From: Sphagnum magellanicum
Taxonomy: Eukaryota; Streptophyta; Sphagnopsida; Sphagnales; Sphagnaceae
Direction of reading: 5' to 3'
DNA: 64,000 nucleotides
NCBI GenBank assembly: GCA_021904315.1
Contig: CM038909.1
Span: 22,668,212-22,732,211, forward strand
Shown: positions 10,402 through 43,218 of the stretch, in pieces
Position numbering within the stretch: the stretch's first letter is position 1
How the letters are laid out: each line of letters begins with the position of its first letter
Translations under genes and position numbers: made by a program
Notes under the pieces: generated by a model
What the model saw: only the letters and a program-made list of their open reading frames with translations
Databases searched by the model: none
Told to the model about the DNA's origin: nothing

Positions 10402-10474
10402 GAAGTGTTTGAAATGATGCCACATGGCACTTTGAAATTTCAGATTGCGTTTTGAACCCTCAGGCCTACCTCCA
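10402..10474 (+). repeat. 73-bp dispersed repeat with G-box palindrome, copy 1
   Basis: GAAGTGTTTGAAATGATGCC through CTCAGGCCTACCTCCA. A same-length copy lies at 18512-18584 in the same orientation, differing at only about ten positions. The core TGCCAC[A/G]TGGCA is palindromic; copy 2 has the perfect CCACGTGG (G-box) and this copy has CCACATGG. It abuts the left long inverted arm and ends where that arm begins. Confidence 0.75.
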
Positions 10475-11150
10475 ATCTTAGGCCGGTTTCACAATGGAAA
10501 CAGACCAAACAGCAGCTCAACATCAATTAGAATACTATTGGAGCCACCCACAACCATTCAGACAAGTACTGGAGCTACCTGCAAGCTATACAGCAAACTC
10601 ATGCAAAAGCCTGTGCTCAAACTCACCCAACCTGGATCTACATCCTACACATTGTGTTGGATCTGAACGCAATTTATTAGAAGGGGCTGAGTGGTGTAAG
10701 GTTGTCCAAGATTCAGATTTGTAATGCAAGAAAGGTCAAAACCATGGCTTTTTCTTCAACAAATGGCCAGAATATTTCTGAGATTTACAGTCTGACCTCC
10801 TTTATATAACTGAAGTCTATCACTTAGATTTGCATGTTTTGCTCACAATAATGCTGATTGCCTGCATATTGTCAGACACAAACAAACTTCAGAATGCAAG
10901 AAACCCAAAAAAACAGGTTCACCAGTACCCTGAAAACTACAAAACCAGCATTGCTTACAATTGAGGAAAGGCAGCACCATGATGTCCAACAGCAGACCCA
11001 CCTTTCAGAAACTTAAAAAGTTTTTACAAGAATCTTCAGACATGCACCTTATAACTATTTCAGCACCCAGTTGCAGATGTACATAGCTCAAACCCCATGT
11101 CAAGTTTGTGAATATCATGTCCTCTAGCACATCCTGATTTCAATTGAACC
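10472..11150 (+). repeat. Long inverted arm, left (TIR-like)
   Basis: About 680 bp, beginning CCAATCTTAGGCCGGTTTC. It matches the reverse complement of 42540-43218 with very few differences: long stretches are identical and I estimate well over 90% identity by eye. Homology stops abruptly outside CCAATCT and on the inside near AATTGAAC. No protein is encoded by the arm. The minus-strand gene to its right reads into it and could be polyadenylated there. Flanks show no clear target-site duplication. Confidence 0.85.
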
Positions 11151-11399
11151 AACTGTGTCCAAGTTACACGTAAAGAACTTTGGGAAAAGCTTGTGCGCTT
11201 TCTGTACATAATATACACAGCAATACAGTATCCACACTCCTCCAGTTCTCAAGAGATCTAGTAACATGTGTGTCATCTGGAGAGTGCAATGTAACTCACC
11301 AGCATTGATGATTTTCCCCCCTTCTTTTTCTGTCATAGCTGCTCACTAACCCCATTCATATTCATGTGGGATGACCTGTATACGTCAGATATGATATAT

Positions 11400-14300
11400 T
11401 CATGTGGGATGACATCGCAATGAAGCAGCAACAGCAGCACACACTTGCTTGTTCCCGGTAGGTTCCCAGTATTTTATGGCAAAGAAATAATTTCTCACCT
11501 TTTCATCACCACCCAGTTCTTGATGGAGGCCAACCGCTACAGCTTCAGCCTGGGTGTCAACATGCAAAGGCTGTACATTTCCTGCTGCAGGAGCTGGAGC
11601 CTTTACATCTCCTGTGGCATGTGGCACCTCCTTGGTGGGTTCTCCACCATCAGCTGGGATCAGGTCCTTCTGGACTGCTGACCCAGTCTCTCTAAGTATG
11701 TCCTCAGCAAATACTACTGGTGCCCCAACTTCCATCTCCACAGGAATCAAACTTGATTCCTTAAACAGAGATGTTGTGCTTCCTTCATCGACACTGTGTG
11801 CAGTCTCTGGTGCACAGGTGCCATTCTCAAGAGTGATGGTCACTCCTTCTGATACTTCCTGAGATTCTAGTGAAATGTTGTTTCCAGATTTTTGGCAATG
11901 CAGGTGTTCCTGAAGCAGACAGGGTGTGATCCCTTCACCAACACTGTCTGTAGCTTCCTCTGCACATGTACCTTTTTCAGGAGTGTTGATTACCCCTTCT
12001 TCTGATACTTCTTTGATTTTCAGTGAAGTGCAGTTTCTAGAATTCAGTAGTTCCTGAACCAGACCTGCTTTTCTCCCTTCATTCACACCATGTCCAGCTT
12101 CATCTGCACGTGCACCATTCTCAGCAATGTTGGTCAACCCGTTGTCTGATACTTCTTGGATATTTTTTGAAGTGGCATTTTCCGACTTTGGGCAATCCAG
12201 TGGTTCCAGAAGCAGAGAAAGTGTGCTCCCTTCATCCACAGTTTGTCTAGCTTCCTCTGCACATGCAACTGCTTTTTCTGCAATAGATGTCAATACTTCT
12301 ACTGATAATTCTTGGAGTTCTGGTGAAGTACAATTCTCTAGGCAATCCAGAGGTTCCTGAGGCAGACTGTGAGTGATCCCTTCATCCAACCTGTGTCTAG
12401 CTTTCTCTGCACATGCACCCTTGTCAGGAATGTTGGTCAACCCTTCTTCTGATATCTCTTGGATTTTTGGTGAAGTCTTATTGTCAGATTTTGGGCAGTT
12501 CAGTGGTTCCAGAAGCAGACAATCGGTGCTCTTCTCATCCACACTGTGTGTTGCTTCCTCTGCAAATTTACAATTCTCAGGATCTTTGGTCAGTCCTTCT
12601 TCTAATACTTCTTGGACTCTTGATGAGTGGCCTTTTTCAGATTTCAGGCAATCCAGGAGTTCCACACTTCTGTTATGATCCATCACCCTAGTGACAGAGT
12701 CCTGACAACTTTCATCTTGGATGTCTGCAGCCTCTCCAAGATCCTTGTTGGCAGTTTCACCAGAAAAAGTGAGGAAGTTGGCATCCCCAGCATCTGATGC
12801 AAAAGAGGTTAGCTCCTTGCTGATCTTAGCTGCCCCTTCATCATCAGATGAACTCCATGTCTCCTTGAAAAATGATGCAGTTGAATCTGAAGTAGCTTCA
12901 CACTCTTGTTTAGCAGAAAGCACAGGAGATGAATTACAAAGCTCAGGAGATGTGTCCAAAGCAGGTGATATATTAAACATGATGGGAGTCATCCCCATAC
13001 TTGCACTCAGTTCCTGATTGGCATTGGTGATAGGTGGTGCTTCCTCCAGACCCTGCTCAGGTTGTTGTGCCAAAACAGAAGTTCCAGCTTGAATGCCAGT
13101 TTCCTGGGTACAAATAGAAGAAGCTGTTGTCTGTTCTGAAGTAACATCATGAAAACCATCAAATGAATCTATTAAAGTTCCTGAGTGAAAAGTGTACAGC
13201 TGGTTCTTGTAAGTTTCCTGGTCATTATCAAGAGGTAAAATGACTTCATGCAAAGCATCAAGAGGAAATCCTGTAGTGCCAGTCCTCAATTCATGTGAAT
13301 CATGCTCCAGGAGATCCACATCTGTATGAGATTCTACATCTTTACTTGGGTAAAGCAAGTCATTCTGCCTTGTGGCTGCAGTCAAATTCTGGTTAACATC
13401 ACCCCCACTTCCACTGTCCTCAGCTGAATGGCACACCAAATTTGGCATGAATGCCACACATAAAGAACCTGCTTTATTAAGGTCTCTGCTCATATCATGA
13501 TCCTCATCAACATCAAATGTAGTTGACCATTCAAGAGGTGTGTCTGAAGGTAACCCCACGACTTCTTGCTGGAAAGTAGCTACTGCATTGTTGCTGGCAT
13601 CTATCTTGCCAAATTCCTGCTGGGTTATGGGAGTATGAGATACCTCAGGAGAACTAAAGACTTCAGAGGAGAACCCAGTTAGGATGTCCTTTCTGCTCAC
13701 TCTCAACTCCTCTGAGATGGCTGGTCTGCTGAACATCTCTTCCTGTGCACCAGCCAGCTTAAAAGCTGATGACTCTGAAGAGATTGCACAAGTTGATGCA
13801 CTTCTCCTAGTGTCTGCAACGTGTAGGTCAACTTGGTGTTTCTGTGCACTGCTGGCATTATCAGGGAGCTCGCAAGTTGAGAGATGATTCATTGTACTGA
13901 CAACTGCATTCTCAACATCAGTATCATTCAAACCTTGCTTCTGCCCAGACAGGTCCAAAGGGATCTGTAAAGTTTGGAGAGTGAACTTGCTTTCATCAGT
14001 GTCTGCACTCTCCAGACCTTCCTGGATTTCTTCAAACTCTGTGACTTCCTCTGAGGGTGGGCAACCTGCAAAGTCATAATCTGGTCTGGCCACTTGTCCC
14101 TCTTGCTCCACATGAATCCCTTGGAAAGAAGGTGGCATCAAAGAAGTTAGGGGTGCTGAAGTAAGTTCTGTATCTGAACTATGCAGAGCCTCAAGATTCA
14201 CCTGTGGATTGCTTTCTTCCTCTGAGGGCAAGTAATTTGAGATATCGTTGTTTTGTCCAAAACTTGTGTCTGACTTCAACCTATGCACAGAGGGTTCCTC

Positions 14301-15983
14301 CTGTGCATACTCAAGGCTTGGTTGCAAGTCTGTAGAAACTGCTGCAGTTTTCTCCTCTGTGTCCAATATAGGCAGGTGCAGCTGCTCATCTTCAGCATGG
14401 TCAACTTCCATGGATATCAATTCCTCAGGCTCACCTTCACTATAAACTGACACCTCTACTGACTCCATCTCTGGCCTTGTTGAGTCTTCACTTGCCAAGG
14501 GTTCAGAAATCAAGCTCCCTCCGAGGTCTGTGAAGAATGCAAACATTTCGTGAGTCTCCAGGTTAAGTTGTACATAGGGCTGGGAGGTATTCACCAGCTA
14601 CAATGAATACTACAAAGAGAGTAAAAGAGAGCTACTTGCAAAGACAAGATCTGCAAAGTGAATGTGAGATTTAAATAGTACAAGCCTTCTCAATCTCTCA
14701 GAGTCCATTCATCATTACTACAGAGACTTTCCCTTCCAAAGCGTCAACAGTTTTGTTGACCCCCATAACCTGAAAAGCACAGTTCTTACCATTGCTTAGG
14801 GGTCTCCAGCTCACAAATACAAAGCCATACAACAAAAACCAGGTGTACACAGGCAACTGACCAGGTTTTGATGAAGTCAACATATCACTGGATGTGGGGA
14901 GGCAGCTGTTATCTCCAGCAACCAATTTCCGTGTTGCATGAAGCTTCACACTCTGGTTCTGTTTTGGTCTTCCAATTACAACTGAATCACCCTGCACTTT
15001 AACAGATTTGGCTGTTGCACTCTTTGTCAAAGATACTTCTTTGTCTGCTTTTTTGCTGTTCATGTCTAGTTTTTTTGGTGAATAAGTTGAGGCTGATGCA
15101 GCCCGTCCTAGAGCAGTCTTCTCTTTACTAGGTGGTGTAGTTATACGTGGTTTCACTGCCTGAGATTGCAGTGGCTGAGAAGGACTGCCCTTCCAAAACA
15201 ACAAGCATTCTGGACTCGACAACAACAAAAACAACAGATTAACACACAGAAATGCAGCAACAAGAGCAACACAGATCAGAGAAATTCACACAGTTGAAAA
15301 CCAAACCATGGAAGACCTTGCAAACAAGAAGTAGAAAGGAGAAGAGAAAAATAAAATGAGAGGGGGGAGAAATCAGAGGCAAGTATGGGGGTCTATGGAT
15401 TTGCAGCTGCTGTGGATTTGAGGAACAAAATGCTTGCAAAATTACATTGTTATTTTGGACATTCATGTTTACTTGTTTCTATCTCATCCTCAAGTTGTTA
15501 TCCGATTGTTCACAACTTTCTGACATTCTGTAGGAACAGATTCTGGACTCCATCCTTCTCCACTGCAGGTAAGTCAACTATTCCTACTTTGAACTCTTTT
15601 AATGCCCAGGCTACCACTCTGTCCAAATGCTCCATTCTCGTATTGCCATTGTTTTCTTCTTTTCCTTTGCGGTTGAACAAATCAGCAAAAATCGTGGCAG
15701 CAAATTTAGAAATATTTGACACCACATCATGGACATTATCCAAATCCATGGCGACCATTGCAATGGTCTTCTTGGCACTTACTGAAAGGTTTTCAAAACA
15801 AACTCCCTGAAGCAGAAGTTTCAAAAGGAGACATGTCAAATTATTACAAGCACCTCAAATAAACCAAAACCCCAATGCTCAACAAAACCCTAAACTTGAA
15901 GGAACATTTTGGAATAACCAAGTCATAAACAAAATATAATGTAGAGTTCTTACTTGGAGTATTGTGTTTGGGGTGGTGGCCAT
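11400..15983 (-). CDS. Multi-exon gene for an acidic protein with six internal repeats, unknown function
   Basis: Minus strand. Exon 1 is 15983-15954 (MATTPNTILQ, good Kozak context GAGAATGG, donor GTAAGA). Exon 2 starts at 15806 (acceptor CTTCAG) and runs to about 15540; its donor is not resolved. Exon 3 starts at 15174 and probably ends at 14851, a basic Ser/Lys-rich segment. Exon 4 runs 14597-11499 (1033 codons, donor GTGAGA); read through, the frame closes at 11400. A 30-nt exon near 11300 may follow, so the 3' end lies close to or inside the left inverted arm. Exon 4 is very acidic and Ser/Glu/Thr-rich. Towards its end are six imperfect tandem repeats of about 48 residues (genomic 11755-12690). 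I recognise no domain. The long, open, phase-compatible exons argue for a gene functional recently or still. Confidence 0.62.
11755..12690 (-). repeat. Six tandem coding repeats (about 145-150 bp each)
   Basis: Lies within the large exon of the minus-strand gene. Each unit reads roughly LL.EPL.C.KS....S..IQE.SEEGLTN..E.G.CAEEA.HSVDEGST, with different substitutions in every copy and the reading frame kept throughout. The copies are clearly diverged, so the array is not a recent slippage product. Confidence 0.88.
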
Positions 15984-16230
15984 TCTCACTGGAAGTTCTT
16001 CAAATACACTTTTTTTCTTCTTTCTTTCCGGCTTTGCCTCAATTGACAACCTTCAATCACGTTACATTTTATATATTGATAGGTACCTATTAGTGACAAT
16101 ATTGGAAAACAACAATACATAAACAAAGATAACTGAAATTACAATTGAAATCTAAATCTACCCTAGAAATCCAAATTAACTTACAAAGCTTTTTGTGATG
16201 GAACACGTATCTGTGTAGAACTTGATCCTT

Positions 16231-17085
16231 GGTGTCGCAACCCCACTTTGGCCAAGTGTGGGGGTGAAGCCCAACACTTGGAAAAGTTGGAGGTTGGGAG
16301 TCCTCCGGGACTCCCGAATGTTCAGAGCTCGACAGCAAGGGGAAAAACACCTCGCATTGGGGTGTTCTTGGTGTCATTGGAAAGGTCTTGAAACGTAGAT
16401 ATCGAAAATGCCCTCGCATTGGCAATTCGGACATCTGCAGCCCAAGTTATGGGCAAAAGAAGGGCCGGGAGTCAAACTGACAGTTTGACTCCCGACCACT
16501 AAAAGTCGGGAATCGACCTCTTCCCGACGTCCGATTTGAGCGTGCGACATGGCGTTGGAAAGATCTCGACGAGGGCTACAACTTTGCTTCAGACCTCGTC
16601 ACGATCGGAGGTCAGGGCGAGAAGATATGACCTCCCAAAGTCCCGGGACTCCAACCGGGACGATTTCGGGACAATTTCGGGACTCCAACTTGGGAATCCC
16701 GGGAATTTGTGCCATTTGGATGTAGCCTCGGTGGCGAGCTGCAGAGAATACTATATGGGGGAGGGTGGTGGCTTCCCCCGAGTCCGGGCCGTGGTGAGTC
16801 TTGTGTGTCCAAGTGCCCATGGCAAGTCCCAACACCAAAGGGTGTCCCAAATGCTAAACTAACCTCGTGGGGTTGGTTTTTGGATGCAGAATCACACAAG
16901 CTAAGCTAGTCCCTCTTCCTAGTCCAATCCCGAGGCTCCCAACTCGACCCTCTACCCCTTTCTAGAGTTGGAAGCCGGGAGCGTGCTACCAAGTTCAACT
17001 TTCCGCAACTTGGCTTTGTGAAACCCTCAAGTGGGTTTCACCCCGTGACTTGGGAGCGCGTCACTTGGAGCCCATCATGACACTC
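16231..17085 (+). mobile_element. LTR-like repeat (solo LTR or fragment)
   Basis: Begins TGTCGCAACCCCACTTTGG and contains motifs common in plant LTR repeats, such as CCTCGCATTGG and GTTGGAAAGATCTCGACGAG. A clearly related but much more diverged copy lies at 59069-59470, and a shorter relative at 63070-63330. The copy here is GC-rich, contains several long GC palindromes (GGGACTCC, CCCGGGACTCC), and has no internal retroviral-type ORF. The right end is uncertain; no 5-bp duplication was found. It sits between the repeat-protein gene and the VOZ-like gene. Confidence 0.55.
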
Positions 17086-17088
17086 ATG

Positions 17089-17150
17089 ATGTTGATCATC
17101 AGAATGATCTTGTGTGTCACACACAATGGTTACAATCTGTATGATATCAG
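17089..17150 (-). repeat. Partial copy of the exon-leader segment at 17703-17790
   Basis: GTTGATCATCAGAATGATC plus the following TTGTGTGTCACAC is repeated at 17705-17745 with few changes. It marks a local duplication that surrounds the LTR-like repeat and the 84-bp tandem array. Confidence 0.6.
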
Positions 17151-17380
17151 GGACTGTTTTAAAAGAAGTCCAGAATCTTTAAGTAGTTTAACTTTCTATT
17201 GTAACGTAGAATCTTGAAATCTAATTAATCCAGTGACTGTTTTAAAAGAAGTCCAAAATCTTTAAGTAGTTTAACTTTCTGTTGTTACTTAGAATCTTGA
17301 GGTCTAATTAATCTAGGGACTGTTTTAAAAAAAGTCTAAAATCTTTAAGTAACCTAGAATCTTGAAATCTAATTAATCTA
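17149..17380 (+). repeat. Tandem repeat, about 84 bp x 2.7
   Basis: Three consecutive units start at GGACTGTTTTAAAAGAAGTCC (17150), then at 17234 and 17318. The third lacks an internal block of about 20 bp. GGAC...GTCC in each unit is an inverted repeat. The unit is related to the GAAGTCCA(G/A)AATCT words found next to the exon copies at 17795 and 18780. Confidence 0.85.
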
Positions 17381-17464
17381 TCATGAACATTAAAGGGCTT
17401 TTGCAAATCCAAAATATTTCAGGGAAAAAAAAAACAAAACAAAACTCTTCCAACTCACCGAATG

Positions 17465-17800
17465 AGCCTTGCGTTTTGGTATCCCTGCATTGAATTGCAA
17501 GGCTTTGCTACTAGGTGCTCTTGTGGTAGCAATGCTAGCCTCTTTGCTTGCATCATGGCAAGAATTGTTTCCGTGCACATGGTTTGCAGAAATTTGCCCT
17601 AGAGGCAGCCTTGGAACTATGAGTTTGTTGGAAAATGATCGCCTAGGTCCTTTTGTCTACTGCAGGATGTGCCCTACCTCTTCATGGCTCGGGTGTTGGT
17701 TGTGATGTTGATCATCATAATGATCTTGTGTGTCACACTCAACGTTTGCAATCTGCACAACATCAACAACATCAGGCAGTGCATGAATGTGTGAGAAGAA
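17465..17800 (-). pseudogene. Dead duplicate of a downstream exon of the VOZ-like gene region
   Basis: The minus strand reads LPLGQISANHVHGN...SSKALQFNAGIPK, followed by a donor-like GTGAGTTGG. It parallels the exon at 18625-18762 (PLGQSFASRARKG...NNRPLQLNARISK, donor GTAAGTTGG). A stop codon near 17690 interrupts this copy. The two therefore look like a duplicated exon with its flanks, this one decayed. Confidence 0.5.
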
Positions 17801-18511
17801 GTCCAAAATTTCACATAGCCTGTTGTTTCCAGCAACTACGAACACACTGATGATTCCTAATCACAATATGAGACTTGGGAAAAAGAACAGTACAAATTTG
17901 GAACAGTTGGACTATTTACAGGATCTTAATAGATTGTTGTTTTCTAACGTTGTAGACCAAGCTGACCAGAAAACTGAATACTACTTAACCTACTACATGG
18001 GTGGGGGAGGGGATAAACAAGCCAGCAGCAGCTGCAAAATCACTGGCATACATAAGTGTTCTTCAGCACCTGGACACTTTTGCAACTGATGTCCACAGAC
18101 ATGTCTCTTATGGATTCAATGATACAAATGAGATCGGAGGGGATTTTCACAAGAGCCCTGTGAATTATATGGTCTTGGACTTCTTGTGCAACTCTGACAA
18201 ACTTTTTCAAATTCCCATCTAGCTATTAAGTAGTTTCAATGATATTCCATCAACCAACGAGGGCATAGTGACTTGAAAGCCTTTGGGTGAACCCAAGCTA
18301 GTCCATTTAAATTATCTCTAAACATTACAAATATCCCATGTTAAGACTAAATCAGGGTGTCTGAGTTCAGATTTGACATTTTTTAGGCTTAATATGGCCA
18401 CTAAGAGGCCTCATTCAAAAAGATCAAGGTACCAACATGGGTGCTGGTTCACCCTGGCCAACTTATGGCACCTACACTGATGACTAATTAGTCACCTTCA
18501 GCTTTTCTTTG

Positions 18512-18584
18512 AAAGTGTTTTAAATGATGCCACGTGGCACTCTGAAAATGTAGATTGCATTTTGAGCCCTCAGGCCTACCTCCA
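18512..18584 (+). repeat. 73-bp dispersed repeat with G-box palindrome, copy 2
   Basis: Same sequence as 10402-10474. The centre TGCCACGTGGCA is a perfect 12-bp palindrome containing a G-box. On the minus strand it falls in the intron right after the exon ending at about 18625. Confidence 0.75.
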
Positions 18585-18599
18585 CTAAAGAAAAAACAT

Positions 18600-20649
18600 T
18601 ATTCTTCCAACTTACCATATCAAGCTTTGAAATCCTTGCATTTAGTTGCAAGGGTCTGTTGTTAGATGCACTTGCGGCAGATGTTATGGCTCCTTTCCTT
18701 GCACGGCTTGCAAAACTTTGCCCTAGAGGTTCATGTATGCCACCACTTGTAGTCTGAAAGACATCACAGAGTGCATGAAAAGAAGTCCAGAATCTCCAAA
18801 CCAAGAAAAAACAATTATGAAAAAAAAATGGCTCAAATCTTTATTCTAGACAACCCACCTAGCAATGGAAATTGTAAAACTTGGAAGAAAAAAAAAGAAA
18901 CCAACTTGTTGGTCAGTCTCACCTTTTCTGCTTTGTTTGAAATGTAGTGTTTATGTTCTTTGTACCATTCATAGATGTCTTCCACCTTCCAACGCATACA
19001 TGTAGTGGTGCCATTTTCCATGAATAAAAGGGCTGCCAATGTTGGCTCACGGTCTGATATAAACTGTTTCACAATGTGGACCACCTCTTTTTGCTCCCGT
19101 AGATTAGCATTCAGAAAAACATTAACTTTTTCATCTTTTGTATCATTAAACCATGAACGCACCATGCACAAATTTCGGTTGTGCACCTTTCATTGGAGGG
19201 GGTGAAAAATCCTAAGGAAATCTCTACCCCATTCTAGACACTGTGTTCGGTTTTTTTTTGAAAATCTTGTCGTACATTGTGAATTGTGCATCAGTAGTGC
19301 AGTTGTCTTGCTTCTTTTTCTTTGCAATGGAGTGATCAACTTTGATGCACTTTTCAACATCCTTCTCTTTAGACTGATATTCTACAATTTCTGCAAATGC
19401 AACTACTAATCAATATCTATACTTACATGCCCAAATTATGTACATATGCTTACATCCATCACTGTACATTGTGGATTGAGTTATTTTCTATGACTCTGGT
19501 TGAACTGCAAAGACAGAAAGAACGAAGCCTGTTGCTCCAAAAAACACAAATGGCTTTATCCTTGCAAAGTGGGTTCAGGGTTATTGAAAGAACCCTAAAA
19601 TAAAGGTTGAAATGGCATAGCTCTAAGCAAATTGAGCAACCAGTAGCACAAAATTTAGAAAAGGAATAGGGTTTACCTGTAGCATTCCAAGGTGTCTTGG
19701 AAGTGGCAGCCCCATGCAATTCTGGAATACCAATAGCTCGCCCATTGACACGAGCTGTTAATGCTGCAAATAGAAGACCATCCTTTAAGTCAATCCTACC
19801 TGGTCTCAGCACTGGGCACATGCCTGGAGTGCCTTCACTCAGTGCTAATTCTTCATGGAAACTGTTGCAGTATACTAACCCCTCATTGCTTCCTTGAGCA
19901 GGCCTTGGGCAATCCCACAAGGCACATTTAGGGTTCAAGAAAGCAACAGATGGAAGAAATATGCCTAGCTTGAACAACATATCAGAGGTAGCACAAGGCA
20001 CATTTAGGGTTCAAGAAAACAACAGATGGAGGAAATATGCCTGGTTTGAACAACATATCAAAGGTAGCAATTGGCGTTTGGTGGTTATGCTGCACAGGTC
20101 TGTGAGAAATGTCATCACACTTCCTTGAACTTGGTCCTGCCTGATGCTCAATACCACCCTCGCTGGGGATTGGTATTCCACACAACTCTGACACTGTGAC
20201 CCCATAATCCTACAAGAAACTAAGTTTTGGAGGTAAACAAGCTCTCTATAAAAAATAAATCAATAGGAATTGACCTCAAGGTCTCATCCATAATGAATAA
20301 CCATGTTCAAAGTATGTCACTTTAGGGTTTATGCAAACTTAATATTCAAAGACAAACTCTAAACCAAAAATAGGACTGATAAATTTATAAAACAAAATTT
20401 TAAAAAAATACCTGGATCCAAAGCCGGAATGAGAATGATATCATGCCTTGATCCAGAATCAAAGCAGTCCATGCTCAATCCAAGGTCATCTGCTTCCATC
20501 ATGCTGCCATCAGACATGATGGCAACAGTTGCCTTGAATATCGCCAAGACATTGCTAACTTTCACATGGTTCTTGTTTGGCCCAAACAAATTTACCTTGA
20601 AGGTTTGATCTTCATTGTGTTTGTTCACAAAGGTCACCTTGGTACTCAT
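18600..20649 (-). pseudogene. VOZ-like transcription factor gene piece, disrupted
   Basis: VOZ proteins are plant transcription factors with a single zinc finger, active in flowering and stress responses. The central exon (minus, 20209-19677) contains PKCALWDCPRPAQGS, then YCNSFHEELALSEGTPGM, then DLKDGLLFAALTARVNG and ATSKTPWNA. These are in the order and spacing of the VOZ zinc-finger/DNA-binding domain, and a donor GTAAAC follows. The rest of the domain (REWLFFDKPRRAFES region) does not follow in the next exons. A 76-bp tandem duplication inside the exon shifts the frame. In the zinc-finger loop a WCQDYC-type Cys is replaced (GLVYC). An exon at 20649-20412 (STKVTFVNKHNEDQTFKV) does not join in phase. 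Exons at 19186-18916 and 18762-18625 code unrecognised sequence. Non-functional as a VOZ. Confidence 0.66.
19921..20072 (+). repeat. 76-bp tandem duplication inside the VOZ-like exon
   Basis: GGCACATTTAGGGTTCAAGA starts at 19921 and again at 19997, and both units run through ...TTGAACAACATATCA. 76 is not a multiple of three, so the second copy shifts the frame of the exon and duplicates the coding segment just before the zinc finger. Confidence 0.9.
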
Positions 20650-20659
20650 CTGCAAGCAA

Positions 20660-21090
20660 ACAAAATAAGTCAGTTCTCTATTTGCTCGTCTTCATTACTT
20701 CTGATTATGACAATGAAAACTAAAACCAACTAAAATCTCAAAACAATTTTATTACCATAGACAAAAAAATTCTCCATCGCCAAAAGAACTCCATAAAAAA
20801 GGAATTATCTCATTTAGCATAAGTTTGTAAAGGTTTCATCATCACTAGTTTTGATTATTTGCCAGCGATCTGCTCTAGGTCCCCTGTGAATGCCTGCAAT
20901 GTGCTCTCCTCTTTGTAAGACTTCCGTTGAAGCTGAAGCTGCTGTTCTTGCTCCGCCAGAGTTGTAATCCAGACTTACTATAAGATCAGAAGTTCTTAGA
21001 TACGCAGAAGACTCATTGGGGAGTCTTGATCTTGCTTGCTGCTGTAAGAAGTTGCTCCTCCTCGGGATATTATATTCTTGCTAAAGTATA
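20660..21090. other. Non-coding stretch between VOZ-like and protease pieces
   Basis: No gene or repeat recognised. The stretch at 20900-21080 is GC-richer and could be the 5' part of the protease-derived segment that follows, but no similar coding sequence is visible. Confidence 0.5.
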
Positions 21091-21091
21091 A

Positions 21092-21595: not shown

Positions 21596-21947
21596 ATTTC
21601 CTCACTATGAACTGCTGGAACTCAGCATTTAATGCACAATGGTTGAGAGTAACTATAGTAGTTGTACAGGTAAGAACAGTGAAAATATGTGTAGCAGCAC
21701 TGGAGGCGCTTAGGAAAAAGGAAAGACAATATGAAACTTAGTTAACCACCAAAATTGCTTGAAAAACTAGTCTGGGTCTTTGTAAAATTTCCATTCCCAA
21801 TTACCCGGTTTGATGCCCTATGAAGTAAGCTGAAACTAACCCCTTGCCCCTATTAATAAGCTGAAACCCGTCGACCCCCCCCCCTCCTTCACATTTCCCA
21901 CTCCGGTTTTTTATTACATGCAGGTCCAGTGGGCGGGTGTCTGCCTT

Positions 21948-21978
21948 GCCCTGCCCTGCCCTGCCCTGCCCTGCCCTG
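21948..21978 (+). repeat. (CCCTG)n microsatellite
   Basis: Six or seven perfect pentanucleotide units. Confidence 0.9.
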
Positions 21979-25436: not shown

Positions 25437-25462
25437 GGGTGGGTGGGTGGGTGGGTGGGTGG
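25437..25462 (+). repeat. (GGGT)n microsatellite
   Basis: About six perfect GGGT units. Four or more G-triplets spaced by one base can form a G-quadruplex. A (TTG)n run follows at 25497-25515. Confidence 0.9.
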
Positions 25463-31600: not shown

Positions 31601-31617
31601 TCTTTTCCCCTCCTCAC

Positions 31618-32193: not shown

Positions 32194-35100
32194 ATGGAGG
32201 GAAATGATGAGGATGAACCTACATTGAATTCTGCAATAAGAGTTTTATGTCCTTGCTTGACATGCCAGGGGACTCGTAGGGTGTCCAGGAGGACAATGTA
32301 CCGGCACATACAAGAAATGGTTGATCCAGTTGGAAGGCTTGGAAATCCTTTGGTAGAAGAGATTGTTATTTTGGATGGACCAAGTCAGGATACATCAACA
32401 AATATTTCTGAGTTTACTCCACCTTCATCAACATCCAGGGAGCCAAGTCAGTGCAGTGACCAACATCCAGCAGGCCCAGTTAAGGTTGTGACCTTAAGAC
32501 AAGCCTTAACCAACAAAATCGTGGAGCTTCAGGAAAAATGGGATGAAAGCCAAGTGCCCATCAACCTTCAAGATTACATGTTACATAAATTGTTTGGGTC
32601 ATTACAAGAGGAACCCAATGTTTTTGAGGATGGGAGACTTGATTATGGTGCCCTGCCAATTGGAAGATTGTTGACATTAGTTGGTTTAGAGCCTGAGCTA
32701 ATTAGAGGATTTTCATTGCCAACTTCATGGAAACAACTTCAGAATCTGTATAGGGAGTTAGGGCTTGTAGCAACAGAGAGGTGGCGATTGTGCACTGGGT
32801 TTACACAAGCACCACATGCTCCCCATTTGATGTCCCCTAGTGTAGAGGATTTGTATGAAGGCTTTGAGGTTGTGCGTTGTGAGTGTGGGTCTAATTCAGG
32901 ACACAAATTTAAAAGAGATTGTCCAGGTTGTTCTCATAGGTGCCCGATTTGCTTACAGATGAGGAAACACATATTAGCCTATGATTACATGCCTATCGGA
33001 CCTTTGTTAGCAAGCTTGTGTAAAAGTAAGAGCATTTGTGAGAAGATGTTGATGACATGGAAAGCTAAAGATAGGTGGTTGGGAAAAGATCCTAAAGTTT
33101 TGCCGGAAGTTATTAAGGAGCATTTTGATGGTAGCAAGTTTCGTGAGTATCAAGCATTTTGGAATCCTGAAGCGGAGTGGGAAGCCCCTGTGATTTGTCC
33201 CAACAACAAATGTTCCCATTCTTTTCGAGCATTTCCTCCAACTCAAAAGTGTGAAGATTTACTTCAACATTGGGATTCAAATACAGATTATTATAGGTTT
33301 CCATGCTCAGAGTGTTCGACTCTTATCAATGTTCACAGGCGCATGTTGAAAGTAAGTTTCGTCTCTCCCATGACTGCAGCTAGTTGCTTCATCAACTTGT
33401 TTTTTTGGGGCATCACAAGGTGTAAAGCAATTGGCTTTTAGTTGCTTCACATGACAAAAACCCAGTATCTTTTCTAAAAACCTTGCTATTGAAGTTCATG
33501 TCCTCAATTTTCTCCCTCCCTTTGCTTTGATTCTTTTTTCTCTCTCTGGCATTTCGTTTTTTTCATAAAAAATTCTGGTTGGTTTTCATTTTGTGTTTCT
33601 CTTTTCTTCTTGGGTCCTTCTGTTCTTTTTTGGTTTCATTGAGCTACTAGCCAAGCATATAAGCTCTCATGGTTTTGGACGAGTCTCTTAGTGACTCCAA
33701 TGTATGCTCAGGTTTCTTTGCAAGTTATGCTTCAGAAGAACATAAGAAGGGTTTGGAAAATGATCTGTTATTCCTGCAACTTTGTGTACCCAGATAAACA
33801 ACTGTTACTGGTGGCATATACCCTAAGTCATTCTGTAAGCTTAATTGTGCTTCTAATGGGCTTCTCGTGTATCTTCTGGGATTTAGCAATGACCCATATT
33901 CGACAAATGGCTTTAAAAATGTAAATTTTTTTGCAAGCTTTCTCAGCCTGATTATGCAGGTATTAACACAATTTGTACAGCTCGTGTGAATTCCAATCTT
34001 TCAGATTCTGTCACATTTGGAGTAGTCAGTAGTGATCTTTGTAGTTTCTTAACACATTGTAGCCCAAACAGTGCCCGTCATTAGTCTTTTGAGGACCAGA
34101 ATTGGATCTTCAAACTTGAACCAGTTGTTTGCTTGTTGATGAATGATTATTGTTTTCTGTTTCTGCATTTTGAAATGAGTTTTGCAGTGTCTCAGTCCTC
34201 AATGAGGAGCTTTTCAATTCATGCTTTGTTCTCCAAAGAGAATGCTCTTAGGGTTCTCCATGTTGTTTCTCTCTTTTCTTCCTGTTCCCTTGTTTGTTTC
34301 TTTTCTGTATTTTCCTCCTTCTGCATGCCCTTTTCTTCTTTGGCCATCTCTTTTTATCGTTGTTTTATTAGTGTGGCCCTCGTCTCCTGTTTCTTTGTGC
34401 TGTTTGGAAGTTTCATAAAAACCCAATTATACCTAGATTTATTTGTGCAGCCAGCTCTACTTCTCTGACTGATGTTTCTAAATGGCTGTGCTCTTTCTTC
34501 AAAGCTATCTTTCCTACAGTCAATGACCTTTGGGTGTCTAAACTCAAAAAGGCAGATGTTCCTTGTGATAGTAGTTGGATTCTCAATGACTCTACAGGAG
34601 TGGTGGAGGTAATAAATAAACTTAATCTTTCAAGATCTGAAATTGATAAAGCTTCCCCACTTCTGTTGCAGTATTTTGATTTCTCAACTCTATACACTAA
34701 AATTGACCTAGTGGATCTAAAAGCTCGTATGAGAGTCCTGATAAATAAAGTGTTTAGTTGGATGCTGAAGCTTCATCGTTTTAAGGTTTTGATGGTTCAA
34801 AAAACAGCTTTGAACTTTAGCTTTTTGTGGCTGAAAAATAAATCAGAGATCTATTTGTTTGAAAACCTTCATAGCTTCAAAGTCACGGAGGCTTCAGATT
34901 TGATCCCTTGGCTGGATTTTTTATTAGACAATTTGTTTCTTTGTTTTGGTCAGGGTGTTTATAGACAATCCATTGGTATCCCCATGGGTACTAATTGTGC
35001 AGTTTATTTGGCTAATTTCTATCTCTTTACCTATGTGTTTGATTTCATTAAGCGTCTCTTGAAGAGTAACACATGACCTGTCGTGCTTCATAGATTGTAC

Positions 35101-38100
35101 TTGGTTCATAGGTTTGTGGATAATCTTTTTATTCCTGATTTTCCAAATTTTGTGAACTTCATGTACCTTAACCAAGACTCTTTTGGTAGCGGCATATACC
35201 CAAAAACATCTTGTGAGTTGAACTGTACATCTAAAGGCTTCTCTTGTAATTTCTTGCAGCTAGCTGTGAGTCAAAGTCCCTAGGTTTATCCTGTGACATT
35301 TTTGACAAACGCTCTCAACCAGAATATGCAGGTATTGAAATGATTAGAATGCCTCATGTTCATTCCAATATCTCAATGATTGCTAAGCTGGGGGTTATCA
35401 ATAGTCAATTACAGATTTTTTAGACTTTGTAGTTGTAAGAAGTTTTTTGTCTTCCAAATGGTCAGTCTTATTGTCTTTCTGAAGGCAAAAGGCTACCCTT
35501 TAAAAGTTCTTCTGAAGAGAACTAGAGGGTTGCTTCTTAAAGAAAAATTCCTGTTTGGAATTTCTACTTTTGGCATTTTCAGAATGATTTTGTTTCTGGT
35601 CTTGTAAGTGGGGAGATTTTTGTAAGCCCACTTGTTCATAGTCTTTCCCGGTTTTGTCCTTTCTTTGAGTTTTTCTTTTCCCTTTCTGTCTTTATTTGTT
35701 TCTTTGTCTTGTCATTGTTGTTGTGGTCTGTTGTTGGCCAGTAGTATGGCTGAGTCTTCCTGTTGCTTCTGGAATTGCAGCAGAAACTCAGTTTGTAGGT
35801 TGGTGCTTGTCGTTGGCCTTTACCCACTGTAGGGAGCTGATGAACTCAGTGGGGAAGTTGTGGTAGTTAAGTCACTATCATACTTACTACTGTTGATGGT
35901 CCCTGAACAGGTGTGAGACTGGCACTTTTGTTCATACCGGTGTGTGTTTTTTGTTTTTTGTTTGTTTTTGTCTTCCCTTGTTTGGTTCTTTATGTGGCTT
36001 CTTGAGGAAGAGTTAACCTTGCTGTTTCTTCTTCATTGTGAGAATGGAGATTTCTCTATTCTTATGAAAGATATCTCTTTTATTGTTTGTGGAGCTAGGC
36101 AGCATCATGTTAAGTCTTCTGTTACTGCCAGTCTTGTGACAGAAACTCACTACATGAATGGATGACATTGATCTCAACCCATTGCCGGGAGCTGGTGAGG
36201 ATGTTATGGTAGCTATTCACTATTATAATTGTTCCTGTTGATGGTCACTGAACCTGTGTGTAACTGTCACTGTTGTTCAAACCACTCCTGAGTCTTTTTG
36301 CTGTTCTAAGAGTTGGCTTGTCTTTTTCCTTCTTTCTCTCTCTTTATTGCTATTGATTTGTTGTCAGATCTGAAATTTATAGAACCTCAGTAGATTACTT
36401 TCAGTTTTGTTCAGCTTGACTTAAATCGTAAGTATGGAAAACTTTGCAATACTCATGTAGATCTTTGTAATGTCGTAAATGAGACTATGTTTTCCACATT
36501 CTTTCATGTCACACCTGTGTCTTAGCTGTGGTGAACAGAGAGCTTGATGGCCTTGTTTTAGGGGTTTTAAACTTTGAATTGAGTCTCAGTGAAGGGTCTT
36601 TAATATTAGGATATAGTGTGCCAGTTTGCACCAGCTCCTGTGAGTTTGGCTTACAAAATCATGAGCCAGTGACATGACTAACTAGCAAGGAGCCATATTA
36701 TCCATTGGAGGTTTATCCTTGGTGCAACTTTCTGAACACCATTTTAGTGCTGTATCTACCCTGTTTCTGAGTGTCATTTTCACATATTGTATTTTCTCTT
36801 TGACTAGGTGGAGATTCTATGAAACTGTTGTGGGCAATCTGGTACAAGAGCTTACACTAGAAGAATTCTGTGGAAGTATTAGAGATGTACTAGCAGATTG
36901 TTGGATTGAGTAGTGATATGTAATGGGTGCAGCCCACAGGTGACAATTGCAACTGCTATTTTATTCTGTCATCGATTCTATATAACTACATAATTAAATA
37001 ATTGGCAACCTCATATTTTTCCTTGAGTAAAAGTAAACTTGCAATGTTTCTTATCATGCACTAATATACTTTGTGTGCATTTGTAGGGCGATCCGCGGAA
37101 TTTTGGGTTGATGTTTCATTGGGATGGATTTTCTTCCGCAAAGACAAGTTTGAAGAATTGTTGGACAGTGGATTTGAGCATACTGAATTGTGGGAGAGAA
37201 AACACATTAGATCCTATTCCTATTATGTTCATTCCATCAAGTTCAGAAAAAATAATCAAACAAGCTGACCCCCACGTGTTGACAGCATTTTTAAAACCTC
37301 TCATGACAGACTTAGAAAGGGTGTTTGTAGATGGATTCCCGATCCAGTATGCATATCCTATAGAATTAATTAGTGAATGCATGTTTGATGATTTGCCTTC
37401 CGGTTTGGCTACTTTGCGGGCCATAGTGATGGTATGGACCGGTGATCATCCTGCCCAATGTAAAGTGGGGGCAGTGAAAAGTGGGGGGTATTCTGGGTGT
37501 CGACGTCACTATGTTATATCAAGATGGCGTGCTCGATCCGGCAATAAGGGTTTGGTGGAATATCATGACAATAGAAAACATAGGAGGCATCCATCTGCCA
37601 TGCGATGTGTAACAGACATGGCATTCGCATTGAAGCAGTGGCAGGAACTTCCAATTGGCAGGGAAAGGGATGAGGTTGGTCGTGAAGCGGGCATTTCAGG
37701 CCAATCATGTCTTTGGAGGCTGTACAATTTGTATGGCTTTGACATTTCTCAGGACCTCACATATGATGTGATGCACACTTTATCATTGTGTGTCTTTAAA
37801 AAATATGTCCACATGTTGGTCAAATACGCTGCAAGAAATGGGAAGATAAAGGATTTGGATGGTGCATTACAAACTGTGAAGAAATTGAGTCCGGCCAGAC
37901 TTGGAGCAAGGTGGCCTAGGAGTACAGAATCTCTAGGATTTTATAAGGCCGAAGAGTACCAAATCTTTGTTATGTGGTGCTTACCACATGTCTTAGATCA
38001 TTTAGATTTGGGCTTGGACTCCATTTTGGGTGGGATAGGTGCGGTGCTCACTGAGGTAGGAAGGCTATTTTACACCCATAGCCGAAGCTATGGCTGGACT

Positions 38101-41100
38101 TTTCAAAGCAGGCAGAATGCTCGAGAATTATTAGCAGCATGGCGTGTGCGCTTGGAGGAAAGTGTTGGGCCCAACTCATCTCCGTTGGAGCATGTTGCAG
38201 GTATTCATTCTAAGGCTGTTTTTTTTGGGCTATCTAGTGTTAAGGTGACAACATTTCTTTTGAAAATGATGGCAAGATGTTTTGCAGGTTTTCTAGTTGC
38301 CAAATCTCATATAAGTCTTTTTGAAAGATTGCAAACCCTGAACCCTAACCTTAAACCCTGAATCATAAAGGTTCCCCAAACCCTAAATCCTAAACCGTAA
38401 ACAAGCTTCCGTGATGGTGGGAAGATTTTGTACCTTGTGGGTATGCACAAAGAATTCATCTTGTTTGCCAAATACAGACTCGTGCTGGATTTGAAGCTCT
38501 GCTGATGATGCACCTGGAGCTCCATGATGTTGGATCTGCAGTTTTGGTAAGCAGATCAAAAGATGTCAATGATCATGCAATAGAAGATCTGACTGTCAGT
38601 AGACATGATTGTTCCGGAGCTTCAGTGAAATTTGAACAATAAATAAGCAGGCAACAGCAGCTGGCTGATCTTTGGCAATAGTGCATGTTGTTGATGTAAC
38701 CAAGTGAAGAAGAAGTCTACTTACCTGCTGCAGCTTTTAGTACTGTCCTGAGGTTTGGTGACAGTAGCCGAAGTGCTTGCCACAGTAGCAGCTACTTTAG
38801 GAAGAGTCATCATCATCCCTAGTGCCTTGATCTCAAGCACTTTCTGCAATTTGGGCTTGCAAGAACATTTTCTTCTGGGAATGAATTTAAGCAGCTTGTC
38901 CAGAAAATGATCTAGAACTTGCAATTGGAACTGCTGTTGATCCTCCTGATCAGCTGCTCATGCTGCTGCTGCTAGCCTGAACCCACTTGCTGCAGCCATG
39001 GGTATGCCAGCAGCTGGGGTGCAGCTCTTCATGTCATGAGGAGCTGTACCAGACTTCCTTGCAGGAGGAGCAGGTTGGTGATCATCAGTCGAATGTAGCT
39101 GGTTTTTGTACTAAGTTTCAATTGGGTAGAAAATAACAAAAAGAAAAACTTTGAAAAAACATTAACTTTATTTCTCACCTGTAGCAGCTACGATTGTTTG
39201 TTCACAGATCTCCTTCTTCCTTTGCATGTGTGCATTCATGTCATATTACCTTCAGATTGTTGTTCTGGAGATTGGTCTGCAATTTTGTAGATGTGTGCAT
39301 CCTCCATTATTGTTATCAGTGAAGACCGTCTGTTGTGATGTCTGGGGAAGGTTCCTAGGATATGCTTGTAGTGGTGCTTTTGGTACAAGTGAATTTTTGG
39401 AACCTATTTTTTTCGCTTGATTTCTAAACAGATGTGATCTTGTCCAAATTGTTGGGCATTTTGACATGGCCGGTAGCTCATTTTGCTTTTGGAAGGGGAG
39501 AATCTGGGGCACTGTGTTTGCTGCTGCTAAAGATGAGGAAAGGTCTCTAGGGTTTTTTTGGGGGGCAAAGAATCAACATAGAAGATTTCTATTGGACATT
39601 TCACGTTGGCTCAAACTGGTTGCAAAGGTGCATTCACCTCAGTACAATCTGGTTGCAGAAGTGCAGGTGGTGCAATGCTTTTGTTAGCCACCACCCTTGG
39701 TCATTTTGGGCATAATGCAATGTCAATCTGGTGGTCTTTATCTCAGGTTTCGACATTCTTAATCATCATCAGGTTAAGTAGTTCATCGAAGTTGCCACTT
39801 GAGCATTGTCGATTGAGTATCAAATTCAACTCCTAGCTTGCTGAAACTGTTATACAGGATATGTCTTACTTTTAGTTTCTGATTGGGAAGACTAAGGCCT
39901 CATAGATGCTCCCGCATGGTACAAGAAGGTAGCTGCCTATCTACAAAGGAGGCAATAGCTCCAATTGGATGCAAAGGCACCAGAAATCCAGTGTCTGTGC
40001 AGATTGCAGACTTTCTCCATGGCTGCACATGTGAATGAACTGAATGTTCTTGCGATGCAAGAGACCATGCATCAGTGTTTTTTCAAATTTCTTGTTTGTT
40101 GGGTTTATGTCCTTCTATGCTGGTTGGGGAGATTGGTGGACCTAGTCTGAAGGGATAGGATGGACATTTCATCTTTGGAGCACTGCAAAAAAATAGAAAC
40201 CACAATTATGTTTGCTGTGTCTGGTCGTTGGATAATGTTTCTGCTTTTGATATGTAGATCAGTAGTTTTCACCAATTCATACTATAATTTCCTTTGTTGG
40301 CATTTGTTACTTGTTGGTCAATAAATCCTGCTTGCAGACTGCAATTTTTTTTTGTTACTTGATATTGTTTGCAATCTGTTGTGTCTTTGTTTGGTACATG
40401 TTTGATAAACCCTTTGTTCACAAGTGGCTGTGTTGTATCACAGCTCTTGGGGACTGCAGATTCTTCCAGAAAAATCCACAAACCTTGAAGATTGCAAAAA
40501 CCATGAGGACTGTTGAGGGTTCACTGTGTGGTCAGCATAGTTTTCATTATCTCTGCAGTGTGGTATTCTACCAGGTTTGGTCTGTCAGAGTTGTTTCTGA
40601 TGGATTAGTAGTTAAAGGTCAATTCGAAAAGCCCACCATTTTTTTCTGTCTAGACTCTCAGGGGTTCAATAGATGGCCGAGATTCTATTACAGGAATCTC
40701 TGTGTATTGTAGCCCAGTTGCAAATGGGTCAAGAATCAAAATCTAACCATCAGTAATTCATTTCATTTTCATGATACATGATATTGATTTCCAAGAATTC
40801 AATGATATTGATGCAACCAGCTGATTTATGGCTAATTGATAGCTTAGCTATATTACAAAATTGAAAATTAAAGCCTTAGGACCATTGATATTTCATTTTG
40901 TGAAACTAGTCCATAGAGTGTGTTTTTATTATGAGTTCTGTCACTGCAAAAGCATATTGCAGGAATATAATCTATGGAATTTTGTGTTCGGGCACACAGG
41001 GAGCGGAGAGCTTCTAGATGATGTGGAGAGGCACGGTTGTCACGATATATTTTGGTGTTACCCTTTTGAAAGGGAAATTTCCAGAGTTGTCAACATTTCA

Positions 41101-42339
41101 TCCAATCAAAAGACAAGTGAAGTCACTTACACTAGCTACTATGCTAGGCAGATTTTCACAAAGATCCATAAAGCTATGCAACTAGACAATGACGGTCTAT
41201 TCCTGGGTGGAAGAGCTTTGAAAGAGGTTCACAAATATCTTCATCTGCCCACAGATGTCCATCGTGTGATGGACCAAGATTTGACAGTTTGTGAGCAGTG
41301 GCATGAAGGATGTGTGGTGGTTGTGCCTTCTCAGGAAATAGCTCGAGCAATTTCCAAATTGGTGCACTGGTTGCCAACATGCTCATGTAAGCAAGTTTTA
41401 CTACAGAAGGGCATAATTGTGGGTAGGAAGATTGGCATCAAAGCAGCAATCTCAGAAAACACAATCTCGTACTTACAATGTTTTTGGACCACCATGGGGA
41501 GCATGACCACTGAAAATTCAGCACTTTTTCAGACTTTAGTTCAAGGATTCTCATTTTGGATGAGGCATGGAAAGGAATTTTGTGTTGGTGATTCAGTGGT
41601 TGTTGAGCCTGATGAGCCATACGAAGGGCACAGGTGGACATGGAAGGCCAAAATCACCCAATTTTTCATCCATGAATTCTATGGTGACATGAGAGTTTTT
41701 TTCCAAGGCAAGTACTACAACACAGCAACATCAGCATCATCATCTTCTGTGGCTCTCCAACACAGCTGTACTGGCATGGTTGTTTTACAACCACATCCAC
41801 AACAGTGGCCTGGGAATGACATCAAACCAGCTCACCTTCTGATGCACAAATTCATTCCGATACCTTTGGTAGGGCAGAATAATGGGATTCTTTTAGCTTA
41901 TGAGTTAGAGGATGTTTCCCCAAGTGGCCATTTGTTTCAGCTAGGGATGCCTGGCCGCTGCCCTCCTTATCCAGAAGTTGGGGATGCGGTGATAGTTAGG
42001 AACAGCAGTGACAGGTCCTTCTCCATGGCAGTAGTGAGGAGTGTGTCTACACCAACATTTACAACTGATTCTCAGGTAGAAGAAGAAAGCAAGAGGAAAG
42101 CCATTGCAGTAGGGCCACTCATGCAACAAGATTACTTTGTGGGTATGGTGTGCTTGGGCATGTTGGAAGTTTATGGGCGGGTGCGTGGAACCTTCAAGAG
42201 GTACAGGGCCTCTGGCATTACAAGCACCAGGTCTTGGCATTCTATTGAAAGAATTTTGGATGATGCCCAAGTTACTCACCATCACAATGGGGAACCTACT
42301 GAATGGATATGGCAAGACATAATGAATGCTCATGGTTAG
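32194..42339 (+). CDS. CACTA/Tnp2-like transposase, three exons, 1203 aa
   Basis: Exons are 32194-33351, 37087-38200 and 41000-42339. Introns start GTAAGT and GTATTC and end TAG and CAG. Phases 0 and 1 match, giving one open frame of 3612 nt. Exon 1 has a Cys-Pro-Cys-x2-Cys ... His finger (C19, C21, C24, H38) like transposase-associated domains, then two further Cys clusters at about residues 226-262 and 335-375. Exon 2 has the Tnp2 core: FHWDGF (D399), VWTGDHPAQ (D506) and YDVMH (D613), candidates for the DDE/D catalytic acids. Exon 3 starts with a DUF4218-like segment (CYPFEREISRVV). It continues with VGDSVVV...WKAKITQFFIHEFYGD (about 948-1000) and YPEVGDAVIVR (about 1080), which look like BAH or Tudor-type chromatin-binding folds. 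It cuts and joins transposon DNA in the nucleus. The long intron contents do not disturb it. Confidence 0.82.
33715..34090 (+). mobile_element. Penelope-like RT relic, 3' part only
   Basis: Broken frames give IYPKSFCKLNCASNG-like and PDYAGINTI...RVNSNLSD segments. These parallel IYPKTSCELNCTSKG and PEYAGIEMI...HVHSNIS in the larger relic at 34405-35610. It is therefore a second copy of the same family, covering only the C-terminal part of the reverse transcriptase, with frameshifts. Confidence 0.55.
34405..35610 (+). mobile_element. Reverse-transcriptase relic, Penelope-like type
   Basis: Frame 34534-35076 carries WILNDSTGVVEVINKLNLS, FDFSTLYTKIDL and IGIPMGTNCAVYLANFYLF, the fingers and palm motifs of a eukaryotic RT. 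It continues in frame past a TGA (35074) into HRFVDNLF, where the catalytic (Y/F)xDD should be; the second Asp is Asn. Then come IYPKTSCELN and, after a frameshift near 35280, CDIFDKRSQPEYAG. The FDFSTLYT and GIPMGTNC motifs match RTs of Penelope-like elements rather than plant LTR or LINE elements. Dead: stop, frameshift and mutated active site. Confidence 0.65.
35730..35920 (+). repeat. About 190-bp dispersed repeat, copy 2
   Basis: Same motif order as 27600-27800 (ATGGCTGAGTCTTCCTG, CAGAAACTCAG, GAGCTGATGAACTCAGTGG, CTGTTGATGGTC.CTGA). It lies directly downstream of the reverse-transcriptase relic. Confidence 0.7.
36110..36270 (+). repeat. About 190-bp dispersed repeat, copy 3
   Basis: TGACAGAAACTCACTACATG, GGGAGCTGGTGAGG and CCTGTTGATGGTCACTGAAC repeat the order seen in copy 2, about 370 bp before it. 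Two tandem copies behind an RT relic fit the tandem, LTR-like ends known for Penelope-like elements. Confidence 0.65.
38201..40999 (+). other. Transposase intron 2 (2.8 kb)
   Basis: Donor GCAG-GTATTC and acceptor CACACAG-GGAGC. The split Gly codon (G|GG) is restored on joining. The intron has no recognised gene. It contains telomere-like repeats at 38332-38402 and a Ser/Thr/Val-rich minus-strand frame at 38721-38924 that I cannot support as coding. Confidence 0.75.
38332..38402 (-). repeat. Degenerate telomere-like repeats (TTTAGGG type)
   Basis: AACCCTGAACCCTAACC, TTAAACCCTGAATC and CCAAACCCTAAATCCTAAACC follow each other. They are variants of the plant telomere repeat CCCTAAA on the plus strand. 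The region is short and mutated, so it is an interstitial remnant. Confidence 0.6.
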
Positions 42340-42539
42340 CTCTGAAGGTGAGAACCATTCCTACCTTCTTCAAAAGTTAGAAGTTAATGAAAAGAACTAG
42401 GCCTAAAATTGTTGTTGTAGATTGATAATTTCTATTTACATGATCACTATAACGCTATGTAGTGGCTGCCTGATAAGTACTTGTGCAGAACTGGAGCAGC
42501 TTGTTTTAGAGGTGGACTTTGGACCAGAGATCAACTGTG

Positions 42540-43218
42540 TTCAATTAAAATCAGGATGTGCTAGAGGACATGATATTCACAAACTTGACATGGGGTTTGA
42601 GCTATGTACATCTGCAACTGGGTGCTGAAATAGTTATAAGGTGCATGTCTGAAGATTCTTGTAAAAACTTTTTAAGTTTCTGAAAGGTGGGTCTGCTGTT
42701 GGACATCATTGTGCTGCCTTTCCTCAATTGTAAGCAATGCTGGTTTTGTAGTTTTCAGGGTACTGGTGAACCTTTTTTTTTGGGTTTCTTGCATTCTGAA
42801 GTTTGTTTGTGTCTGACAATATGCAGGCAATCAGCATTATTGTGAGCAAAACATGCAAATCTAAGTGATAGACTTCAGTTATATAAAGGAGGTCAGACTG
42901 TAAATCTCAGAAATATTCTGGCCATTTGTTGAAGAAAAAGCCATGGTTTTGACCTTTCTTGCATTACAAATCTGAACCTTGGACAGCCTTACACCAATCA
43001 GCCCCTTCTCATTAATTGTGTTCAGATCCAACACAATGTGTAGGATGTAGATCCAGGTTGGGTGAGTTTGAGCACAGGCTTTTGCATGAGTTTGCTGTAT
43101 AGCTTGCAGGTAGCTCCAGTACTTGTCTGAATGGTTGTGGGTGGCTCCAATAGTATTCTAATTGATGTTGAGCTGCTGTTTGGTCTGTTTCCATTGTGTG
43201 AAACCGGCCTAAGATTGG
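42540..43218 (-). repeat. Long inverted arm, right (TIR-like)
   Basis: Near-perfect reverse complement of 10472-11150; it ends GGCCTAAGATTGG. Most differences are single bases plus a 2-bp indel near the outer end (CACACAATGG against CACAATGG). The transposase stop codon lies about 200 bp before the arm, so its 3' untranslated region and polyadenylation probably fall inside it. Confidence 0.85.

Follow-up and report, generated by a model that had tools for sequence, protein, structure and literature searches.

Which mobile unit, if any, occupies the middle of a 64,000-nucleotide stretch of chromosome 3 of the peat moss Sphagnum magellanicum (GenBank assembly GCA_021904315.1, contig CM038909.1, positions 22,668,212 to 22,732,211 of the forward strand; here called the window)? 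An initial annotation of this stretch had proposed a giant element of about 33 kb with terminal inverted repeats, possibly mobile, reaching from 10472 to 43218 and carrying its own transposase gene together with several pieces of host genes. The complete genome (438,994,042 bases in 31 contigs) was searched; C followed by a number denotes the chromosome, and the window sits on C3. With a probability of roughly 0.87, the locus holds a cut-and-paste transposon of the CACTA type (En/Spm, CMC), about 38.5 kb long, which is moved as a single unit by the TNP2-type transposase it encodes. Size class, mobility, transposase and host pieces agree with the earlier proposal. The 33-kb borders do not: the element reaches from about 9922 to 48421 (Table 1).

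Ends and sister copies

The limits of the element become apparent from two sister copies, one of 39,557 bp on C8 and one of 26,202 bp on C5. In alignments, homology with both spans 9925 to about 48418 and thus passes far beyond the arms that had been taken for the terminal repeats. These arms are internal: The ends lie 547 bp (left) and 5.2 kb (right) further out. Substitution divergence between the three whole copies amounts to 0.95-1.03%. The terminal inverted repeats of CACTA/En-Spm (CMC) elements begin with a CMCWR-like motif. The C8 and C5 copies both open with CACAAGGGG and close with its complement; the C8 copy starts with CACAAGGG and finishes with CCCTTGTG, its right repeat containing one additional C. 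The window copy has TTA at the left and GAT at the right instead of the outermost CAC/GTG, and inward of the perfect 27-bp repeats a weaker similarity between the ends extends over the outer ~85 bp. With its outermost bases altered at both ends, this copy is probably immobile now. Genome-wide, the terminal-repeat pattern with at most three mismatches was found at 17 sites including the window's own, compared to 0 for a reversed control.

The proposed mobility is borne out by other copies with the same ends, by 3-bp target duplications and by a readable empty site on C8. TGG flanks the C8 copy and CCT the C5 copy on both sides; the chance of each match is about 1/64, and the two are independent. 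On C8, the insertion interrupts an exon of a gene for an amine-oxidase-like flavoprotein; the downstream frame of this gene matches Amino_oxidase (E 4.2e-12) and NAD_binding_8 (E 4.5e-10). When the C8 flanks are joined with a single TGG, the open frame DVCIVGGGSTGTYAAIRLL is restored; over so short a stretch, another frame is open as well. The C5 copy has lost 31112-42453 and with it the transposase, which it would need to receive in trans.

Table 1. Positions of the features of the element in the window.
Feature	Position	Strand	Evidence and remarks
Whole CACTA-type element	9922..48421	+	block shared with C8 and C5 copies; ends compared; ~38.5 kb
Left terminal inverted repeat, 27 bp	9925..9951	+	exact match to reverse complement of 48392-48418
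Right terminal inverted repeat, 27 bp	48392..48418	-	perfect partner of left repeat
Left end	9925..10232	+	matches right end of older copies, 92-93%: C6:505350, C6:20974559, C1:16217378; C1:5583178 (~190 bases)
Dispersed repeat, ~245 bp, between left end and left arm	10225..10471		at least ~35 further places, 82-93%
Left arm, continuous with element body	10472..11149	+	self-alignment; copies compared
Block a	11458..15184	-	1065-aa open frame (11403-14597, minus strand); C5:7989623-7993262, 96-98%; 84 bases unmatched between two pieces
Solo-LTR-like (long terminal repeat) insert, window copy only	16229..17063		TG...CA, CTTGG repeated at edges; empty in C8 and C5; no C6 match there
Block b, aspartic-protease fragment	20862..21601	+	five C11 places (2.795-2.902 Mb), best 87%; TAXi_N E 1.1e-8 (open reading frame 21092-21379)
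Block c, candidate host piece	25597..27406	+	C2:3181650-3183412, 92%
Block d, coiled-coil-like by eye, multi-locus	27792..31358	+	halves 27792-29240 and 29733-31358 adjoin on C8, C17, C16, C3, partly C6, 85-92%
Transposase exon 1	32194..33351	+	open frame; donor GTAAGT
Reverse-transcriptase-looking open reading frame (by eye), in extra part of transposase intron 1	34372..35073	+	no Pfam family
Transposase exon 2, TNP2-like core	37087..38200	+	database homologues; open frame
Transposase exon 3	41000..42339	+	open frame; second splice site uncertain
Right arm, inverted copy of left arm	42539..43218	-	98.4% identity over 680 bp
Block e, myotubularin gene fragment with introns, 3.8 kb, outside right arm	43230..47034	+	C3:5129786-5133413, 95-96%
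Right end	47031..48418	+	matches left end of older copies: C6 92%, C1 92%, C18 88%, part in C6:20.99 Mb and C7

The transposase

The transposase gene had been placed in frame between the arms, and it is indeed open across three exons. The model encodes 1203-1239 amino acids (aa), varying with the choice of the second splice site; direct reading shows an open frame of 1203 aa in the window and one of 1205 aa in the C8 copy. For the open reading frame (ORF) containing exon 2 (37087-38358), 52 homologues were found in a protein database, the best one 99% identical and comprising 127 member sequences. PF02992, the tnp2 transposase family, is carried by 19 of the 52, at 26-47% identity. Across 16 aligned rows of exon 2 homologues W12-D13-G14, D120 and E289 are invariant; these are putative catalytic residues. 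The AlphaFold model of exon 2 is poor (predicted local distance difference test score, pLDDT, 54.7).

Older relatives have lost the open gene: The C6 copy has stops in exons 1 and 2 and the C7 copy in the parts that it retains. Between window and C6, synonymous divergence (dS) of exons 1, 2 and 3 is 0.131, 0.108 and 0.082 and nonsynonymous divergence (dN) 0.049, 0.032 and 0.028. The resulting dN/dS of about 0.38, 0.30 and 0.34 is consistent with past purifying selection. Intron 1 measures 3735 bp in the window versus 344 bp in C6, and its extra part contains the reverse-transcriptase-looking ORF.

Captured host sequences

Five blocks of the element, a to e, match loci elsewhere in the genome with 85-98% identity. 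They comprise 13,157 bp, about one third of the element, and ~10.1 kb of this (blocks a, b, c and e) point to one locus, locus pair or cluster each. For block c, block d and the C14-type repeat mentioned below, 40 of 1547 candidate matches were scored, and their counts are lower bounds. The 1065-aa frame of block a belongs to no Pfam family and has four database homologues that are 81-99% identical. Block e contains Myotub-related (E 1.8e-8) and a second match (9.8e-5) below the curated cut-off; a relative on C12 is 91% identical, and the source gene on C3 extends past the captured part. The initial annotation does not mention this 3.8-kb fragment.

The gene pieces named in that annotation fared unequally. 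The aspartic-protease piece corresponds to block b, inspection by eye revealed ORFs of coiled-coil-like character and ORFs with repeats, and retention of introns in captured DNA was shown for block e. A VOZ-like piece received no Pfam support, neither in 20 ORFs scanned singly nor in 95 ORFs of the plus strand and 64 of the minus strand (overlapping sets of ORFs of at least 48 aa). Seven weak families on the minus strand (E 0.0018-0.045) and six further ones on the plus strand (0.00076-0.028) were taken as chance or uninformative matches.

Block e is bordered by 4-bp microhomologies at both junctions (ATGT, AATA). At the left and right junctions of block a and the left junction of block b, about 0, 1 and 2 bp were counted by eye. 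Error-prone break repair would have added the blocks, judging by the 0-4 bp of microhomology at these five readable junctions. In the older C6 copy, blocks a, b and e are missing at the matching places, and the stretch containing c and d has no match there. Block a is also missing in the C1, C7 and C18 copies and block e in those on C1 and C7. Unequal divergence from the source loci suggests serial capture, in an order inferred from loci whose host rates differ.

Two further observations concern these blocks. The 490 bp that interrupt block d (29241-29732) match a cluster at C14:1.11-1.55 Mb with at least a dozen similar copies (84-93%). Small pieces of block a's gene (78-96%) lie near the right end of older copies (C6:22410367-22411386, similar on C1 and C6); this gene may have been captured twice.

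Could the size of the element be due mostly to nested transposons and repeats, with the cargo as passive ballast devoid of any role? The odds for this explanation are about even. The solo-LTR-like insert, the ORF in intron 1, the C14-type repeat, the multi-locus block d and the dispersed repeat at 10225-10471 fit it, but the extent of the matches to other loci, most of it with defined sources, and the long open frame kept in block a do not. Its second half, that the cargo has no role, may hold.

Arms and a proposed internal inversion

As predicted, two nearly identical inverted arms of about 680 bp are present. A search of the genome with the arm yielded 13 matches, including itself and its partner, with one place split in two. 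Arm pairs occur in the window and in the C8 and C5 copies, single arms at the other places; the older copies on C6, C1 and C7 contain a single arm only in the stretches read. Where the surroundings of an arm match were read, they turned out to be a copy of this family; the opposite pattern, arms as independent short elements and an interval collinear with a host locus, was not found.

The two arms represent a left and a right type that differ by 8 fixed substitutions and one 2-base indel and are common to all three young copies. This means that the duplication predates the spread of these copies and that the arms have not been homogenised since. Recent gene conversion, which had been suggested, next to recent activity, for the high identity of the arms, is unsupported, as the two types are fixed across C3, C8 and C5.

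The origin of the arms can be read from the orientation of the ends. For this purpose, the strand of the arm that is continuous with the body was compared to that of the end at 47035-48421 in all copies with both features (C16 and C6:20.97 Mb, with one feature each, were left out; the C7 end used is only 104 bases long). Both are on opposite strands in four of four older copies (C6:22.4 Mb, C1:5.5 Mb, C7 and C18) and on the same strand in three of three young copies (C3, C8 and C5). Since, in addition, the left end of the window element matches the right ends of older copies, the body is reversed between the ends. An inversion with staggered breaks leaves an inverted duplication, an idea known from the inversion literature. 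One arm copy runs into the body and the other faces the end, as predicted for a single inversion of this type at the arm. From these comparisons between copies, the arms are best read as an inverted duplication left by an internal inversion. Such an inversion, with a staggered break, would have turned the body around between the ends and produced a second, inverted copy of the 680-bp arm, one copy then lying on either side of the body. The inverted form would subsequently have spread to C3, C8 and C5, and the C5 copy would have lost its transposase later.

An arm pair could also arise without inversion, when one end is copied onto the other during repair, either by template switching or by tandem insertion and aberrant excision. 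The captured blocks have repair-like junctions, and Pack-CACTA hybrids have been proposed to originate from tandem insertions and aberrant excision (PMC13317346; here and below, papers are cited for the portions of their text that were available). This route is nevertheless unlikely, though worth retaining: Relative to the body, the left and right ends have swapped places, and a single inversion accounts for this in one step.

Older copies and flanking sequence

An older copy at C1:5535404-5583380, partly read, has the ancestral order and is, with ~48 kb, larger than the window copy. A compact relative on C6, with a putative extent of at least 15.6 kb, has its right end at 20974558 and a truncated left end reaching to 20990179, and both may belong to one element. 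For the C6:22.4 Mb copy, no right end could be located within the 40 kb examined.

On C8, a partial second copy (C8:17447677-17461062) comprises the right 13 kb of the element and 200 bp of the flavoprotein exon and is 99.97% identical to the right side of the C8 element. The flavoprotein gene continues past this partial duplicate, not past the full copy. In the right flank of the window, a 4.6-kb piece (48618-53195) recurs once, at C8:17471065-17475594, with 98% identity. At both loci, it starts ~200 bp from the element end, and these 200 bp differ; the piece may reflect an exchange between the two loci. The later 13.4-kb duplicate and the shared flank piece could be taken to indicate segmental duplication of a gene-rich block without transposition. 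This is very improbable, as the flanks of the C3, C8 and C5 copies differ at precise ends, TGG and CCT are duplicated, and removal of the C8 copy restores an exon. That a 33-kb element ends in the 680-bp arms can practically be dismissed: The arms are real, inverted, near-identical and paired on C8 and C5, but homology between the copies continues beyond them. At its limits, 9925 and 48418, lie short inverted repeats, accompanied on C8 and C5 by 3-bp duplications, and in the stretches read of the older C6, C1 and C7 copies there is just one arm.

Just left of the element, an ORF (8383-9108) encodes a secreted-looking protein, by eye rich in His and Asp and then in Ser/Pro repeats. The AT-rich right flank contains tandem arrays of 99-bp and 236-bp units (49146-50790). 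In an Rfam scan, nothing reached the gathering threshold.

Assessment and implications

Several points weigh against a self-mobile CACTA element with the history proposed here. A Pfam scan of the window transposase protein itself does not detect PF02992. No clear target duplication was found at the window copy, and the older full-length C1 copy carries an imperfect one (AAC/CAC). A crude count of 9-mers against shuffled sequences revealed no clear subterminal array of short repeats, a feature of CACTA elements: The left end is inside the shuffle range, while the right 1.4 kb are above it, led by GAA-type runs, as is an internal control stretch. Block d occurs in multiple copies and cannot be traced with certainty to one source; instead of a gene, it may represent a repeat. 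Finally, inversion and capture order are reconstructed from present-day sequences rather than observed.

In its full form, the proposal is that a potentially self-mobile CACTA element would have grown to ~39 kb by serial capture of host segments from multiple chromosomes, that its body would have been flipped with duplication of an arm, and that transposition would have continued. We consider this complete history about as probable as its opposite. If it is true, a giant cut-and-paste element can remain autonomous, and its ends tolerate reversal of the body. Most descriptions of gene-carrying cut-and-paste elements in plants concern short elements that rely on others. The peat moss host would document gene shuffling by transposons outside flowering plants. 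As three near-identical copies, older relatives and host source loci are present in one genome, one can read directly in which order pieces were captured, by what chemistry the junctions formed and how size affects mobility.

Comparison with known systems

According to the Sphagnum genome paper, CACTA elements account for 6.8% and are the most abundant classified repeat type (PMC9946827). Literature searches turned up no paper on moss CACTA elements that are giant or capture genes, which does not prove that none exists. The closest counterpart in size is the CACTA family Tpn1 of Ipomoea nil, for which 339 elements are listed, the longest with 40,619 bp (PMC5105172). Size alone is therefore not new. 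Tpn1 elements share CACTA ends, 3-bp duplications and captured host sequence with the window element. However, those listed are described as non-autonomous with replaced internal sequence, and for the longest one the available text does not state whether it has a transposase (PMC5105172). By contrast, the window giant combines an open transposase with several host blocks and an inverted body.

Coding-gene pieces, which in some cases stem from several loci, are likewise carried by the inverted-repeat elements known as Pack-CACTA and, more widely, Pack-TYPE (PMC8903248). Such gene fragments are found here in blocks a, b and e, which have source loci, and Pfam domains were detected in b and e. 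Pack-TYPE elements are defined as non-autonomous (PMC8903248). The 26.2-kb C5 copy fits this definition; the window and C8 copies, with their open transposase, do not. In Chenopodium, CACTA elements (Jozin and relatives) unite complete ends, transposase and captured gene fragments, but measure 8.3-10.1 kb and contain short gene fragments (PMC8978399). The En/Spm elements of Chondrus crispus are also enlarged CACTA elements, with 16-20 kb and 4-5 ORFs; they are smaller than the window element, and their extra ORFs are, in the available text, not described as copies of host genes (PMC6431247). What sets the window element apart from these systems is that it is giant, has an open transposase, carries several captured host segments and has its body inverted; this combination is new.

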